From Amycolatopsis thermophila (GTDB lineage: Bacteria; Actinomycetota; Actinomycetes; Mycobacteriales; Pseudonocardiaceae): a stretch of 64,000 bases of DNA. Numbering within the stretch: position 1 is the stretch's first letter; each line of letters starts with the position of its first letter. The notes under the pieces are model-generated. The model did not search any database. It was not told the DNA's origin and saw nothing but the letters and a program-made list of their open reading frames with translations. Position numbers and translations under genes: made by a program. This document shows, in pieces, positions 11,519-17,012 of the stretch. Where the stretch lies: NCBI RefSeq assembly GCF_030814215.1, contig NZ_JAUSUT010000001.1, forward strand, positions 4,588,001-4,652,000, read 5' to 3'.

Positions 11519-12154
11519 ATGAAGGCAGGGGCACGGGTGGCCGCCGCGGTCGCCGCGGGATATCTGTTGGGGCGCACCAAGAAAATGCGGCTGGCCCTGA
11601 TGATCGCGGCCGCCGGGGCGACGGGGAAGGCGAACCTCTCGCCCGGGAAGCTGCTGCAGAACGGGCTCAGCCAGCTGGGCTCGTCGCCGGAGCTGGGCAA
11701 GCTCGCCGATCTCGCCCGTGACGAACTGCTGGGGGCGGCGAAGGCGGCGGCGGTGACCGCGGCCAGCAGCCGGATCGAATCGTTGAGTGACCGCCTCCAG
11801 GAGGGCGGCCCGTTGCTGTCCGGCAAGAGCCGCGGCAAGGACGGCGAGCAGGAGGCCGAGCCGGACGAGGACACCTACGCGGAAGAGGAAACCGAAGAGG
11901 AATCTCCCGAAGAGGAAGAGGAACCGCAACGGCCCGCGCGTCGTCGTGCGGCCCGCGGGGGACGGCGTCGCGCCGAGCCCGAAGAATCCGAGGACACCGG
12001 CTCCGACGAAGGCGAGTCCGACGAGGCCCAGTCCGATGAGGGCGAGTCCGACGAGTCCGAGGAGGCCGAGCCCGAGGAGGAGTCCCGGCCGACCCGTAGC
12101 CGCCGCACCCGCGCCACCGCCACGCGGACGCCGGTCCGGCGGGCCCGGAGGTGA
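11519..12154 (+). CDS. gvpY: Gas vesicle cluster protein, GvpY-like, with acidic then basic tail
   Basis: First gene of the gas vesicle operon, 211 aa, start ATG 11519 after AGGAGG. The N-terminal part carries AAAVAAGYLLGRTKKMRLAL, the glycine-containing hydrophobic hook followed by GRTKK typical of actinobacterial proteins encoded beside gvpZ (called GvpY in Streptomyces clusters). From about residue 110 the protein is almost entirely Glu/Asp/Ser-rich, ending in an Arg-rich segment (SRRTRATATRTPVRRARR). Such a tail should be disordered and may bind other vesicle proteins or RNA. The family name is from neighbourhood and N-terminal pattern, moderately sure. Confidence 0.65.
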   Translation: MKAGARVAAAVAAGYLLGRTKKMRLALMIAAAGATGKANLSPGKLLQNGLSQLGSSPELGKLADLARDELLGAAKAAAVTAASSRIESLSDRLQEGGPLLSGKSRGKDGEQEAEPDEDTYAEEETEEESPEEEEEPQRPARRRAARGGRRRAEPEESEDTGSDEGESDEAQSDEGESDESEEAEPEEESRPTRSRRTRATATRTPVRRARR

Positions 12155-12159
12155 CGGCG

Positions 12160-13212
12160 ATGGCTACCAGGCAGGTCGGCAAGGCCGCGGGCAAGGCGAA
12201 GGACACCGCGTCGAAGGCCACCGGCACAGCGACGGACACGGCGTCGAAGGCCACTGGCACCGTGTCCGACGTCGCGACGGTGCCCACGGGGGATCTGACG
12301 GTGGCGCTGCGCAAGCTCGCGACCGCGGTCGCCGGGCGGGCGACCACCTCGCTGACGAAGAAGATCACCTCGACCTCGGGACGTCTCACCGACTTCTCCC
12401 AGGGCGGCGGTGGCGGACTGGTCGAGGCCCTCCTGGGCGACAAGCCCAGCGTGAAGGGCAAGGCGGCGATGGGCGCGGTCAAGGGCGGCCTGTCCGGCGT
12501 CATGGACAAGGTCAAGGGCGCGGTGTCCGGCGGTGACGGTGGCGGCGGCGGGCAGAAGCTCAAGGTCACCAACATCGTCGAGCACATCGACATCGGTGCG
12601 CCGGTGGACCTGGTGTACGCCCAGTGGACCCGGTTCAGCGACTTCCCGCGGTTCATGAAGAAGGTCGAGAACGTCGCGCAGGTCAGCGACGAGAAGACCG
12701 AGTGGAAGGCCCAGATCTTCTGGTCGCACCGCACCTGGGAGGCCACGATCGTCGACCAGGTGCCCAACGAACGCATCATCTGGCGGTCCAAGGGCGAGAA
12801 GGGGCACGTCGACGGCGTTGTCACGTTCCACGAGATCGCCCCGAACCTGACGCGGGTCGTGCTGGTGCTGGAGTACCACCCGCAGGGGCTGTTCGAGCGC
12901 ACCGGCAACATCTGGCGCGCGCAGGGCCGCCGGGCTCGTCTGGAGCTCAAGCACTTCCGGCGTCACGTCATGACCGAAGCGCTGCTGCACCCCGACGAGG
13001 TCGAAGGCTGGGAGGGGGAGATCCGCGACGGCCAGGTCGTGGACAGCGAAGAGGGCGAGGAAGGCGAAGAAGAAGGCGAGGAGTCCGACGAGGCCGGTTA
13101 CGAGGACGAGGAAGAACCCGAAGAGGAAGAACCCGAAGAGGACGAGGAAGAACAGCGCCCGGCACGCCGGTCCCGCGCGGCGGCGGGCCGTGGACGAGGG
13201 AGGAGCCGATGA
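12160..13212 (+). CDS. gvpZ: SRPBCC-domain gas vesicle cluster protein (GvpZ-like)
   Basis: 350 aa. ATG 12160 is preceded by GGAGGTGA, which overlaps the stop of the previous gene; an upstream GTG (12151) is less well placed. The N-terminal 130 residues are Ala/Thr/Lys-rich low complexity ([20 protein letters not shown]). A START/SRPBCC-type domain follows at roughly residues 135-275: [60 protein letters not shown], all typical of polyketide-cyclase-like folds found in actinobacterial gvp clusters. The C-terminus is a run of Glu ([12 protein letters not shown]) followed by an Arg-rich end, the same layout as the preceding protein. Role in vesicle assembly unknown. Confidence 0.8.
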
Positions 13213-13604
13213 CCACAGCAGTGCAACCGGCCGGGGGTGGCGGCGGACTCGACCGCCCGAGCTCGAGCAGTCTCGCCGACGTGATCGACACGATCCTGGA
13301 CAAGGGACTCGTCATCGACGCCTACGTCCGGGTCTCCCTGGTGGGGATCGAGCTGCTGACCGTCGACGCCCGCGTGGTGGTGGCCAGCGTGGACACCTAC
13401 CTGCGGTTCGCCGAGGCGGTGAACCGGCTGGACATCTCCGGTACCGAGCAGAAGGGCCTGCCCGACCTGGTCGAGGGTGTGGCCAGTGGCGGCTCGAAGG
13501 CCAAGACGAAGGGAGCCATCGAGGCGGCGGGCGACAAGTTGCGGGACCTGCTGGGCGAGGACGAGGAGCCCGAGCAGGCCGGGCGGCGCCGGAAGGGGAA
13601 CTGA
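13209..13604 (+). CDS. gvpA: Gas vesicle major structural protein GvpA
   Basis: 131 aa, ATG 13209 overlapping the previous stop (ATGA), AGGAG just upstream. The GvpA core is clear at about residues 20-80: [22 protein letters not shown], then [30 protein letters not shown]. The extended C-terminus, Lys/Glu/Gly-rich, is usual in actinobacterial GvpA. In the other two paralogues of this cluster (14914 and 16036) the core is less complete, so this one is the best candidate for the rib-forming shell protein. No GvpN-type AAA ATPase is encoded in the cluster. Confidence 0.93.
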
Positions 13605-13605
13605 C

Positions 13606-14373
13606 ATGGCCGAAGACAGCGACGGCAAGGCGGTGTACGTCTACGGCATCGTGCCCGCGGACGTGGAAACCGATCCGGAGGCGAAGGGCGTCGGCGATCC
13701 GCCGGCCCCGGTCAAGACGGTGCGGCACGAGAAGATCGCCGCGCTGGTCAGCCCGGTCAGCACCGGGGATCCGCTGGGCAGGCCCGAAGACCTGACCGCG
13801 CACGCCTCGCTCCTCGACGCCGCGGCGGCCGAGGTGCCGGTGCTGCCGCTGCGGTTCGGCGCCGTCGTCACCGACGAGGACGCGGTGGTGGACGAGCTGC
13901 TGGCGCCCTACCACGAGGACTTCGAGTCCGCGCTCGAAGAGCTGGAGGGCAAGGCCCAGTACGTGCTCAAGGCGCGTTACGTCGAGGAGGCGATCCTGCG
14001 CGAGGTGCTGGAGGGCGACGCCGAACTGTCCCGGCTGCGCGAAGCCATCCGGGGCAAGCCCGAGGACGCCACCCGCAACGAGCGGATCGCCCTCGGGGAG
14101 CGGATCACCCAGGCCATCGCCGCCCGGCGCGAGGAGGACACCCAGCGCGCGGTGGCGGCACTGGAGCCGCTCGACGTGCGGATCAACCTCCGCGAACCGA
14201 CGCACGACCAGGACGCGGTGCACCTGGCGTGCCTGGCCGAAACGGCGAAGCAGGCCGACCTCGAGGACGCGGCCGGGCGCCTCGCGCAGGAGTGGGAAGG
14301 GCGGGCCCACGTGCGGCTCCTCGGACCGCTGGCGGCCTACGACTTCGTCGTCACCCGGCGGCCGGGGGAGTAG
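13606..14373 (+). CDS. gvpF: Gas vesicle protein GvpF/GvpL family (first copy)
   Basis: 255 aa GvpL/F family protein that acts in vesicle nucleation and chaperoning of GvpA in known systems. Family signs: AVYVYGIVPADV at the N-terminus, IAALVSPVS, the conserved VLPLRFGAVVTDEDAV (residues near 80-95), QYVLKARYVEEAILREVL, and LGPLAAYDFV at the end (cf. GPWPPYSF of the second copy). Starts 1 bp after the gvpA stop. Second paralogue at 15260. Confidence 0.93.
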   Translation: MAEDSDGKAVYVYGIVPADVETDPEAKGVGDPPAPVKTVRHEKIAALVSPVSTGDPLGRPEDLTAHASLLDAAAAEVPVLPLRFGAVVTDEDAVVDELLAPYHEDFESALEELEGKAQYVLKARYVEEAILREVLEGDAELSRLREAIRGKPEDATRNERIALGERITQAIAARREEDTQRAVAALEPLDVRINLREPTHDQDAVHLACLAETAKQADLEDAAGRLAQEWEGRAHVRLLGPLAAYDFVVTRRPGE

Positions 14374-14376
14374 CGC

Positions 14377-14613
14377 ATGGGGCTGCTCACCACGATCGTC
14401 ACCCTGCCGCTGGCGCCGCTGCGCGGCGTGATCAGCCTCGCCGAGGTGATCAAGCGGCGGGTCGACGAGGAACTCGCCGATCCGGCCGCCGTCCGGCGCC
14501 AGCTCGAGGCGGCCGAAGAGGCCCGCGAGGCCGGTGAGATCTCGGCCGAGGAGGAGACCGAGATCCAGCAGCACGTGCTGCAGCGGCTCGGAGCGAACGA
14601 GAAGGAGAGGTGA
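14377..14613 (+). CDS. gvpG: Gas vesicle protein GvpG
   Basis: 78 aa, matching GvpG length. The sequence GLLTTIVTLPLAPLRGVISLAEVIKR followed by a coiled-coil-like acidic/basic helix (EELADPAAVRRQLEAAEEAR, EETEIQQHVLQRL) is the standard GvpG pattern. ATG 14377 is 3 bp after the gvpF stop. GvpG is an accessory assembly protein. Confidence 0.92.
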   Translation: MGLLTTIVTLPLAPLRGVISLAEVIKRRVDEELADPAAVRRQLEAAEEAREAGEISAEEETEIQQHVLQRLGANEKER

Positions 14614-14620
14614 TGGCGCG

Positions 14621-14911
14621 ATGGCCGGGGAGGACGGACGAGGGCTGACCGCGTCCGAGGCCGCGTCCAAGGCACTCGGGCACGCGGGCGAACTGATCAC
14701 GAGCGACCCGGTGGCGGTCACCTCGGTCGAACCGGTCGAGGACGGGTGGCTGATCGAGGTCGAGGTGCTCGAGGAACGCCGCATCCCCTCGTCCGCCGAC
14801 ATGCTCGCCATCTACGAGCTGGAACTCGACCTCGGCGGCGACCTGCTCGCCTACCGCCGCACGAAGCGGTACGTGCGCGGGCAGGCCGGCACCGGAAGCG
14901 AGGTGGGCTGA
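14621..14911 (+). CDS. gvpO: Gas vesicle protein GvpO
   Basis: 96 aa. The conserved GvpO core is seen: DGWLIEVEVLEERRIPSSADMLAIYELELD and LLAYRRTKRYVRGQ. ATG 14621 chosen over an out-of-frame ATG at 14613; GAAGGAGAGG ends at 14610. In Streptomyces clusters gvpO usually leads the operon before gvpA; here it sits between gvpG and the second gvpA-like gene. Confidence 0.92.
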   Translation: MAGEDGRGLTASEAASKALGHAGELITSDPVAVTSVEPVEDGWLIEVEVLEERRIPSSADMLAIYELELDLGGDLLAYRRTKRYVRGQAGTGSEVG

Positions 14912-14913
14912 CC

Positions 14914-15267
14914 ATGGCGCAGCGGCAGCCCGTGACCAGCACCGGGAACCAGACGCCCGCACTCGGCGGCGGCAACCACCAGACCGCCAACCTCGGCGAC
15001 ATCCTGGAGCGGGTCCTGGACAAGGGGGTCGTCATCGCCGGCGACATCCAGGTCAACCTCCTCGACATCGAGCTGCTCACCATCAAGCTGCGGCTCGTGG
15101 TCGCCTCGCTGGAGACCGCCAAGGCGGTCGGCATCAACTGGTGGGAAAGCGATCCGTGGCTGTCCGGGGACACCTCCCGGCTGGAGAACGAGAACCGCGA
15201 GCTGAAGGCGCGGCTGGCCGAGCTGGAGGGGGACCGGCACGAGATCGAGGACGGCCGAAGTGACTGA
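14914..15267 (+). CDS. gvpJ: Gas vesicle protein GvpJ (GvpA paralogue)
   Basis: 117 aa minor GvpA-family protein. Core: DILERVLDKGVVIAGDIQVNL, LDIELLTIKLRLVVASLETAK. It continues GINWWESDPWLSG and a C-terminal heptad-like helix (RLENENRELKARLAELEGD), features of GvpJ rather than GvpA. Begins 2 bp after gvpO and overlaps the next gene by 8 bp. Likely a vesicle-tip or nucleation component. Confidence 0.9.
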   Translation: MAQRQPVTSTGNQTPALGGGNHQTANLGDILERVLDKGVVIAGDIQVNLLDIELLTIKLRLVVASLETAKAVGINWWESDPWLSGDTSRLENENRELKARLAELEGDRHEIEDGRSD

Positions 15268-16039
15268 GGGAACCGGGATCTGGCTCTACGCGGTGACGCG
15301 GCAGCTCGCCCCCGGGGTGCTCGACGCGCTGCGGGGCGTGGCCGGTGAAGAGGTCCGGGTGGTGCGCGACGCGGGCCTGTCCGCCGTCGTCGGGGACGTG
15401 CCGATGGAGACCTTCGGCGAGGAACCGTTGCACCGCAACTTCGAGGACCTCGACTGGCTGGGCGGCGTGGCGCGCGCCCACGACGCCGTGATCAGCGCGG
15501 TGGTCGCGGCCGGGCCGGCCGTGCCGATCCGCCTGGCCACCGTCTACCACGACGAGGACCGGGTGCGCCGGGTCCTCGAGCACCGCCGGCCGGACTTCGA
15601 ACGCGCGCTGGACTTCGTGACGGGACGAACGGAGTGGGGCGTCAAGGCCTTCCTGCAGGACCCCGGACCCGGGGAGGAGGGCGGCGACGCCGGGAACGCT
15701 CCGTCCCGACGAGGGGCCGGGACGGCCTACCTGGCCCGCAGAAAAGCCGCGCTGTCCGCGCGGGAAACCACCCAGCAGCGGGGCCGCGACCAGGCGGTGG
15801 ACGTCTACAACAGACTGCTGGAGTTCGCCGTCGCCGCGCGGACCCACCCGCCGCAGAGCAAGGAACTGAGCGGCCACAGTGGACAGATGATGCTCAACGC
15901 CGCCTACCTGGTCGACGAGGACGCCGCGCGGGGTTTCGCCGCGGCGGTGGCCGCGTGCGACGACGAGCACCCGGCGCTGCACCTCCAGCTCACCGGGCCG
16001 TGGCCACCGTATTCGTTCGCGTCAGTGGAGGAGTCATGA
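15260..16039 (+). CDS. gvpL: Gas vesicle protein GvpL/GvpF family (second copy)
   Basis: 259 aa starting at GTG 15260 inside the end of gvpJ. GvpL/F signs: GIWLYAVTRQL, GLSAVVGDVPME, VPIRLATVYHDEDRV, GVKAFLQDPG, NAAYLVDEDAARGFAAAV and GPWPPYSFASVEES at the C-terminus. It is divergent from the first GvpF copy, as normal in clusters with both. Confidence 0.92.
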   Translation: MTEGTGIWLYAVTRQLAPGVLDALRGVAGEEVRVVRDAGLSAVVGDVPMETFGEEPLHRNFEDLDWLGGVARAHDAVISAVVAAGPAVPIRLATVYHDEDRVRRVLEHRRPDFERALDFVTGRTEWGVKAFLQDPGPGEEGGDAGNAPSRRGAGTAYLARRKAALSARETTQQRGRDQAVDVYNRLLEFAVAARTHPPQSKELSGHSGQMMLNAAYLVDEDAARGFAAAVAACDDEHPALHLQLTGPWPPYSFASVEES

Positions 16040-16389
16040 ACCAGCAGGGTCCCGCGAGGGTCACCGGGCGCCGGATCCCGGCGCGGACGGTGCAACAGCA
16101 GGCTCCCGCGAGGGGCACCGCGCGGCGGGTACCGGCGCGGACGGTCGAACAGCACGCTCCCGCGAGGGTCACCGGCCGCCGGGCTCCGGCGAGGACGACC
16201 GGAGAGCAGGTTCCCGCGCCGGTCGCCGACCAGCCGATCGCCCTGGTCGACCTGCTCGACCGGGTCCTGGCCGGCGGGGTCGTCGTGACCGGGGAGATCA
16301 CCCTGTCCATCGCCGACGTCGACCTCGTGCACATCTCGCTGCGCACCCTGTTGTCGTCGGTCAGCGCGCTCCGGGCCGGCGATGAGTGA
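16036..16389 (+). CDS. gvpS: Gas vesicle GvpA-family protein with repeat-bearing N-terminus (GvpS/GvpJ type)
   Basis: 117 aa. The C-terminal half carries a GvpA-like core: IALVDLLDRVLAGGVVVTGEI, SIADVDLVHISLRTLLSS. The N-terminal half is unusual: three 18-residue repeats of the form xPARxTxRRxPARTxxxx, which make a long, Arg/Pro/Ala-rich, probably disordered arm. ATG 16036 overlaps the gvpL stop (ATGA); the 3' end overlaps gvpK by 8 bp. Assignment as GvpS is by order. Confidence 0.85.
   Translation: MNQQGPARVTGRRIPARTVQQQAPARGTARRVPARTVEQHAPARVTGRRAPARTTGEQVPAPVADQPIALVDLLDRVLAGGVVVTGEITLSIADVDLVHISLRTLLSSVSALRAGDE
16048..16209 (+). repeat. Three tandem 54-bp coding repeats in gvpS
   Basis: Units start at 16048, 16102 and 16156 and share CCCGCGAGGG and CCGGCG blocks. 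They encode the three 18-aa Arg/Pro/Ala repeats of the gvpS product. The period is a multiple of three, so copy number can change without breaking the frame. Confidence 0.85.
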
Positions 16390-16669
16390 GCCCGGCGGGC
16401 GGCGGATCAACGCCGACCCGGACAACACCGAACGCAGCCTCGTGACGCTGGTGCTCACCGTGGTCGAGTTGCTGCGGCAACTCATGGAGAAGCAGGCGCT
16501 GCGCAGGGTGGACAGCGACGACCTGACCGACGACCAGGTCGAGGCGATCGGGCTGACCCTGATGCGGCTGGAGGAGCGGATGGCGGAACTGTGCGACCAC
16601 TTCGGTCTCGAGCCCGCCGATCTGAACATCGATCTCGGCCCGCTGGGCCCGCTCCTGCCCGAACGGTGA
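16382..16669 (+). CDS. gvpK: Gas vesicle protein GvpK
   Basis: 95 aa. Clear GvpK pattern: RRINADPDNTERSLVTLVLTVVELLRQLMEKQALRRVD, LTDDQVEAIGLTLMRLEERM, then FGLEPADLNIDLGPLGPLL. Starts at ATG 16382, 8 bp inside gvpS. Last gene of the gas vesicle block proper. Confidence 0.94.
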   Translation: MSEPGGRRINADPDNTERSLVTLVLTVVELLRQLMEKQALRRVDSDDLTDDQVEAIGLTLMRLEERMAELCDHFGLEPADLNIDLGPLGPLLPER

Positions 16670-16733: not shown

Positions 16734-17012
16734 ATGACAATCACCGGAATCATCAGTGCACTCGTCGTCGGCCTCGTCATCGGTGTGCTCGGCCGCCTGC
16801 TCGCGCCCGGGAAGCAGCGCATCCCGATGTGGCTGACCATCGTGATCGGTATCGTCGCCGCGTTCGTGGGCACCGCGATCGCCCGGGGCGCCGGTTACGC
16901 CGACACCAACGGGATCGACTGGCTCGAGCTCCTGACCCAGGTCGTCCTCGCCGCGCTCGGGGTCTCCGCCGCTTCCGCCCTGTTCGGCAAGCGGCGCAAG
17001 CTGATGCACTGA
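16734..17012 (+). CDS. GlsB/YeaQ/YmgE family small membrane protein
   Basis: 92 aa with three hydrophobic helices: GIISALVVGLVIGVLGRLLAP (residues 5-25), MWLTIVIGIVAAFVGTAIA (32-50), LLTQVVLAALGVSAASALF (66-84), ending GKRRKLMH. This is the transglycosylase-associated-protein family, small membrane proteins commonly induced by stress. ATG 16734 follows GGAG. It has its own promoter candidate but is probably also read through from the gas vesicle operon; a strong terminator follows. Confidence 0.88.
   Translation: MTITGIISALVVGLVIGVLGRLLAPGKQRIPMWLTIVIGIVAAFVGTAIARGAGYADTNGIDWLELLTQVVLAALGVSAASALFGKRRKLMH

Follow-up and report, generated by a model that had tools for sequence, protein, structure and literature searches.

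The single-contig, 7.3-Mb genome of Amycolatopsis thermophila contains a gas-vesicle (gvp) gene cluster in which two adjacent genes, gvpY and gvpZ, encode different folded domains followed by long tails with an acidic block and then an Arg-rich block. This raises the question of what such tails do in a gvp cluster. The original prediction was that they may drive condensation or vesicle clustering. The locus was analysed within a window of 64,000 nucleotides (the whole stretch of DNA, to which all coordinates refer) and compared with related loci.

The gvp cluster and the folded domains of GvpY and GvpZ

The cluster spans positions 11519-16669, entirely on the forward strand, and consists of gvpY (11519..12154), gvpZ (12151..13212), the shell protein gene gvpA (13209..13604), a gvpF-type gene (13606..14373), gvpG (14377..14613), gvpO (14621..14911), a gvpJ-type gene (14914..15267), a gvpL-type gene (15260..16039), a gvpS-type gene (16036..16389) and gvpK (16382..16669), several of which overlap. 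Pfam gas-vesicle domains were detected above cut-off in eight of the ten genes. The joint presence of shell protein, GvpF/L, GvpG, GvpO and GvpK domains identifies this as an actinobacterial gvp cluster, and gvpY and gvpZ lie adjacent, in that order, beside the other gvp genes. The closest named relatives of GvpZ were from Amycolatopsis species (72-74 % identity over the best segment). A search for sigma-70 promoters between 11200 and 17100 found none. Directly after gvpK (16734-17012) is a gene for a 92-residue protein with hydrophobic stretches, possibly a membrane protein.

The folded parts of the two proteins were unrelated, as originally proposed. GvpZ has an N-terminal helical stretch followed by an SRPBCC/START-like domain (residues 148-268 by PF03364; 67.8 bits against a cut-off of 23.4, E 1.4e-18). 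The fold of this core matched START/aromatase structures (Foldseek E 3e-6), with a query model of low overall confidence that was built from 10 sequences, had a mean pLDDT of 52 and was confident solely in parts of the SRPBCC core. The curated cut-off and the matching fold place the core in the SRPBCC superfamily, from whose START domain proteins GvpZ differs by its additional helical stretch and its long charged tail. The N-terminus (12160-12260) contains 11-residue repeat units, which we take to be of the kind found in amphipathic surface-binding helices. GvpY begins with a helical domain of ~105 residues, predicted as four helices (mean pLDDT 70), for which a fold search found no structural match and searches of Pfam and NCBIfam no convincing family. 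A PHA-granule model was among scattered weak matches but was rejected as unconvincing (2 of 70 members, best E 0.015).

Composition of the charged tails

Translations and block counts confirmed that both proteins end in acidic-then-Arg tails, which had been placed correctly to within two codons. The GvpY tail contains two such units. The first (11843..11974) has an acidic block at 11843-11926 (residues 109-136; 17 of 28 D/E and no K/R) and an Arg block at 11927-11974 (residues 137-152; 8 of 16 R), while the second (11975..12151) has an acidic block at 11975-12085 (residues 153-189; 21 of 37 D/E) and an Arg block at 12086-12151 (residues 190-211; 10 of 22 R) that ends in TPVRRARR. GvpZ has a single unit (13042..13209), with an acidic block at 13042-13152 (residues 298-334; 27 of 37 D/E and no K/R) and an Arg block at 13153-13209 (residues 335-353; 8 of 19 R). 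The basic residues in the blocks of both proteins were exclusively Arg. Disorder prediction had been suggested as a check on the tails, and the GvpZ tail is predicted to be disordered, with pLDDT below 50 for residues 285-353, except residue 328, in the 10-sequence model. Both tails were charge-segregated polyampholytes, blockier than their shuffled versions (delta 0.234 versus 0.081±0.021 for GvpY and 0.241 versus 0.097±0.031 for GvpZ).

In this genome, the likeness between the first unit of GvpY and the GvpZ tail is partly one of sequence. They align across ~43 residues with a score reached by none of 500 block-preserving protein shuffles, and the corresponding DNA score was reached by none of 300 block-wise codon shuffles. 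This likeness beyond the block design would fit a duplication or conversion involving the two adjacent genes, or an expansion that took place in both of them in parallel. Across 144 loci, Y and Z tails from the same locus resembled each other somewhat more than Y tails resembled other Z tails (mean rank 0.64). Codon-level likeness would also be expected from duplicated or converted low-complexity DNA if the tails had no function and had drifted in a G+C-rich genome, or were a nitrogen store, a role that one paper suggests for the Gvp proteins of Actinobacteria living in soil (PMC5839063). Drift or storage is highly improbable given the constraint on charge and charge order in relatives described below, the rarity of the design in neighbouring genes and the fixed end peptide of GvpY.

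Conservation of the tail design

Absence of the tails from close relatives had been named as evidence that would count against the original prediction; the design was kept in both close and distant relatives. Among gvpK-anchored loci, 48 of 60 contained both genes, adjacent as YZ in 47 of the 48, and the charge order of the arms was kept across several actinobacterial families. The acidic-first score exceeded the reverse score in 49 of 49 Y tails and 47 of 50 Z tails. A block rule was passed by 46 of 49 GvpY tails, which were thus bipartite, and by 16 of 50 GvpZ tails, when measured after the folded domain. Among the non-gvp genes of the loci retrieved, with the rule applied to the last 130 residues, 14 of 1222 passed. 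In alignable tails, replacements were approximately one-third, and charge-changing replacements one-quarter, of those in a neutral simulation (221 versus ~992 expected charge-changing replacements for Y and 348 versus ~1366 for Z), a comparison that leans toward constraint, since pairs that could not be aligned were left out. This pattern suggests that the charged tail design is under selection in many actinobacteria, with constrained replacements.

The shared order does not make the tails alike everywhere: the idea of one design on both proteins held for the acidic-then-Arg order in this genome, but GvpZ tails are mostly polyanions while GvpY tails are more balanced. Median SCD was -3.8 for Y tails, indicating attractive charge patterning, and +10.8 for Z tails, indicating net polyanions. 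Both tails of this cluster had slightly positive values (0.85 and 1.19), which do not predict strong self-condensation. The basic charge of Y and the acidic charge of Z were correlated across 48 loci (Spearman -0.64). This correlation was present in family f19, which holds two gene orders, and absent inside the other three of four families (f20, f21 and f22), leading to rejection of a close charge matching inside families.

Basic ends of this kind could instead attach to DNA or RNA, keeping vesicles at the nucleoid. Close to their ends, 5 of 149 Z tails, all in Rhodococcus loci, carry RGRPRK, presumably the core of an AT-hook DNA-binding motif, and Ala/Pro-Lys-Lys repeats, which we assume to resemble histone-H1-like tails, occur in the Y proteins of several f21 loci. 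However, RGRPRK was found in none of 148 Y tails and large acidic blocks adjoin the basic ones in most tails, making a nucleic-acid tether very unlikely. In Rhodococcus loci such as L051, L059 and L091, the RGRPRK words are repeated within the GvpZ tail.

A C-terminal peptide in GvpY

Of 148 distinct Y tails, 80 had the motif P[VIL].R within their final 14 residues (mean of 1.2 and maximum of 6 in 200 rounds of shuffling), with exactly three residues following PVxR in 62. The motif was present in this region in 24 of 149 Z tails. The commonest residues at the Y end were R-[AS]-P-V-R-R-[TA]-R-R, and GvpY of this cluster ends in RTPVRRARR. Named loci with the peptide include those of Amycolatopsis, Nocardia, Rhodococcus, Mycobacterium, Streptosporangium and Planotetraspora, among others. 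It was missing from named loci of Jiangella, one Streptomyces and several Micromonospora, among others, and f21 and f22 loci had Y ends different from the PVRRxRR type. One explanation is that this peptide docks on a folded Gvp protein and that the charged stretches are flexible, solubilizing linkers which form no condensate. The position and frequency of the motif would fit, but 68 of the 148 Y tails keep a charged arm without it, and this account explains neither why the acidic part is conserved ahead of the basic one nor why GvpZ has a basic cap. Linkers with a docking peptide are thus an unlikely full account.

GvpA and gvpS as further partners

The C-terminus of GvpA combines a short acidic stretch with an Arg cluster (13554-13601), a third and shorter version of the design that the original prediction had overlooked. 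It was rejected as a full third member since only 27 of 58 loci had GvpA tails meeting the acidic-then-basic threshold and only 29 % of 147 GvpA tails were more charge-segregated than shuffles. The gvpS product had been proposed to contribute an Arg/Pro/Ala arm able to bind the acidic tails. The arm exists here (16036-16233), with six xPAR words and 12 R and 3 acidic residues in 66, but it is not a general partner of the tails. The spacing between the gvpL stop and the gvpS domain, a measure by which an arm overlapping gvpL would be missed, was 59 residues here. In 15 relatives it was 3-30 residues (for A. deserti and A. tucumanensis, 5-6), and none of these shared the arm; a conserved partnership was therefore rejected.

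A candidate adaptor pair

Taken together, the tail sequences suggest that the charged design probably helps to gather or tether vesicle parts. The reading tentatively preferred here, at a little below an even chance, is that GvpY and GvpZ form a co-encoded adaptor pair whose arms pair by charge and gather vesicles or assembly sites. Each protein would comprise a folded head and a long disordered arm; many weak contacts would hold the polyanion of GvpZ to the basic part of the GvpY arm, both might also contact the charged C-terminus of GvpA, and the PVRRxRR peptide of GvpY could dock on a folded partner. Vesicles or assembly sites would thereby be clustered and shell protein locally concentrated. 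The difference between a polyanionic Z arm and a more balanced Y arm, often with an end peptide, argues for heterotypic pairing rather than self-condensation of each tail, and the combination of negative SCD in Y tails with net polyanionic Z tails favours their mixing. The case for each tail condensing alone is weakened by the SCD values, which are positive for Z tails and for the two tails here. In this modified form the original prediction is partly borne out.

GvpY and GvpZ in genomes without gas-vesicle proteins

In the family, 55 of 62 genomes with YZ also encoded a gas-vesicle protein. GvpZ was absent from 21 of 76 genomes with a gas-vesicle protein, indicating that a genome can have a cluster without the pair. 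Conversely, 7 of 200 family genomes, four of them from one genus, contained YZ without any PF00741 protein. Their Z tails were shorter than those of 25 vesicle-positive relatives (13-74 versus 51-152 residues; p 2e-4) and less acidic (p 3e-4), a difference in favour of the adaptor reading. The YZ-only genomes themselves count against it, as does one vesicle-positive relative (L217) with a Z tail that has no acidic block.

Another protein, X, with apolipoprotein-like repeats below the Pfam cut-off, was encoded in all seven YZ-only genomes, in 20 of 55 with both YZ and a vesicle protein, and in none of 21 with a vesicle protein but without Z; it adjoined YZ in six of the seven genomes without PF00741. 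At six YZ loci in genomes without PF00741 (L172, L173, L174, L175, L177 and L178, in G033, G095, G116, G164, G134 and G197), the neighbouring X has 11-residue-like Gly/Ala/Val repeats and an Arg-rich end, and is accompanied by a small partner gene of 79-91 residues. The A. thermophila genome has such a pair ~2.1 Mb from its gvp cluster (G000:C1:6729586-6729849; L191 7521-8315), in which X is without a long acidic-Arg tail. A Dactylosporangium fulvum locus (L072) contains two opposite-facing GvpZ-like genes and a Y-like gene, with no gvp gene found within 16.8 kb.

These distributions, along with the START-like fold of Z, could indicate that the Y-Z module, often with X, belongs to another surface or particle (e.g. 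a lipid or storage inclusion) and serves gas vesicles only secondarily. The co-occurrence of YZ with gas-vesicle protein in most genomes of the family, its place inside the gvp gene order in gvpK-anchored loci, the concentration of the exceptions in one genus and the reduced Z arm there make this quite unlikely. A broader reading, possible but doubtful, is that Y-Z, often with X, is an actinobacterial particle-organizing module existing independently of gas vesicles, with charge-patterned arms and a C-terminal PVRRxRR docking peptide. The gvp clusters would have taken it over and extended the polyanion of GvpZ to cluster vesicles, while some Pseudonocardiaceae-type genomes would still use it without vesicles.

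Relation to known systems and significance

Streptomyces coelicolor has genes named gvpY and gvpZ (SCO6503/SCO6504 and SCO0653/SCO0654), listed as mutual neighbours in a gvp table (PMC5839063), in the order O-A-F-G-Y-Z-J-L-S-K as compared to Y-Z-A-F-G-O-J-L-S-K here. This comparison covers gene names, positions and survey loci. Streptomyces-type loci (L106, named Streptomyces, and f21, whose family name is inferred) had Y and Z with charged tails, as here, although in several f21 loci the basic part of Y was Lys-rich and lacked the PVRRxRR end. Streptomyces Gvps are described as rich in Arg/Glu/Pro (PMC5839063). The names GvpY and GvpZ are also used for proteins of a different cluster in the proteobacterium Serratia sp. 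ATCC 39006 (PMC4982088 and PMC10344784).

The nearest described counterpart to the role proposed for GvpY and GvpZ is that of the Bacillus megaterium proteins GvpU and GvpT, non-essential accessory proteins said to organize vesicles in space (PMC11445434); the proposed likeness is one of role. According to this source, GvpU, and to a lesser extent GvpT, clusters vesicles through a phase transition, and clustering by GvpU could not be confirmed in one paper (PMC11223475). GvpY and GvpZ may belong with a kind of accessory protein already known. A search of the open-access literature found no study of actinobacterial GvpY or GvpZ function.

Two papers (one of them PMC5839063) state that gas vesicles have yet to be observed in Streptomyces or in bacteria of the soil, and the introduction of another paper lists Actinomycetes among gas-vesicle producers. 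A survey of 394 genomes from the class found GvpK in 90. If GvpY and GvpZ organize vesicles or other particles via selected charged arms, they would offer a handle on the role of gvp clusters and a small two-part tool for positioning the vesicles employed in ultrasound imaging. The genomes that keep YZ without vesicles make this question directly testable.
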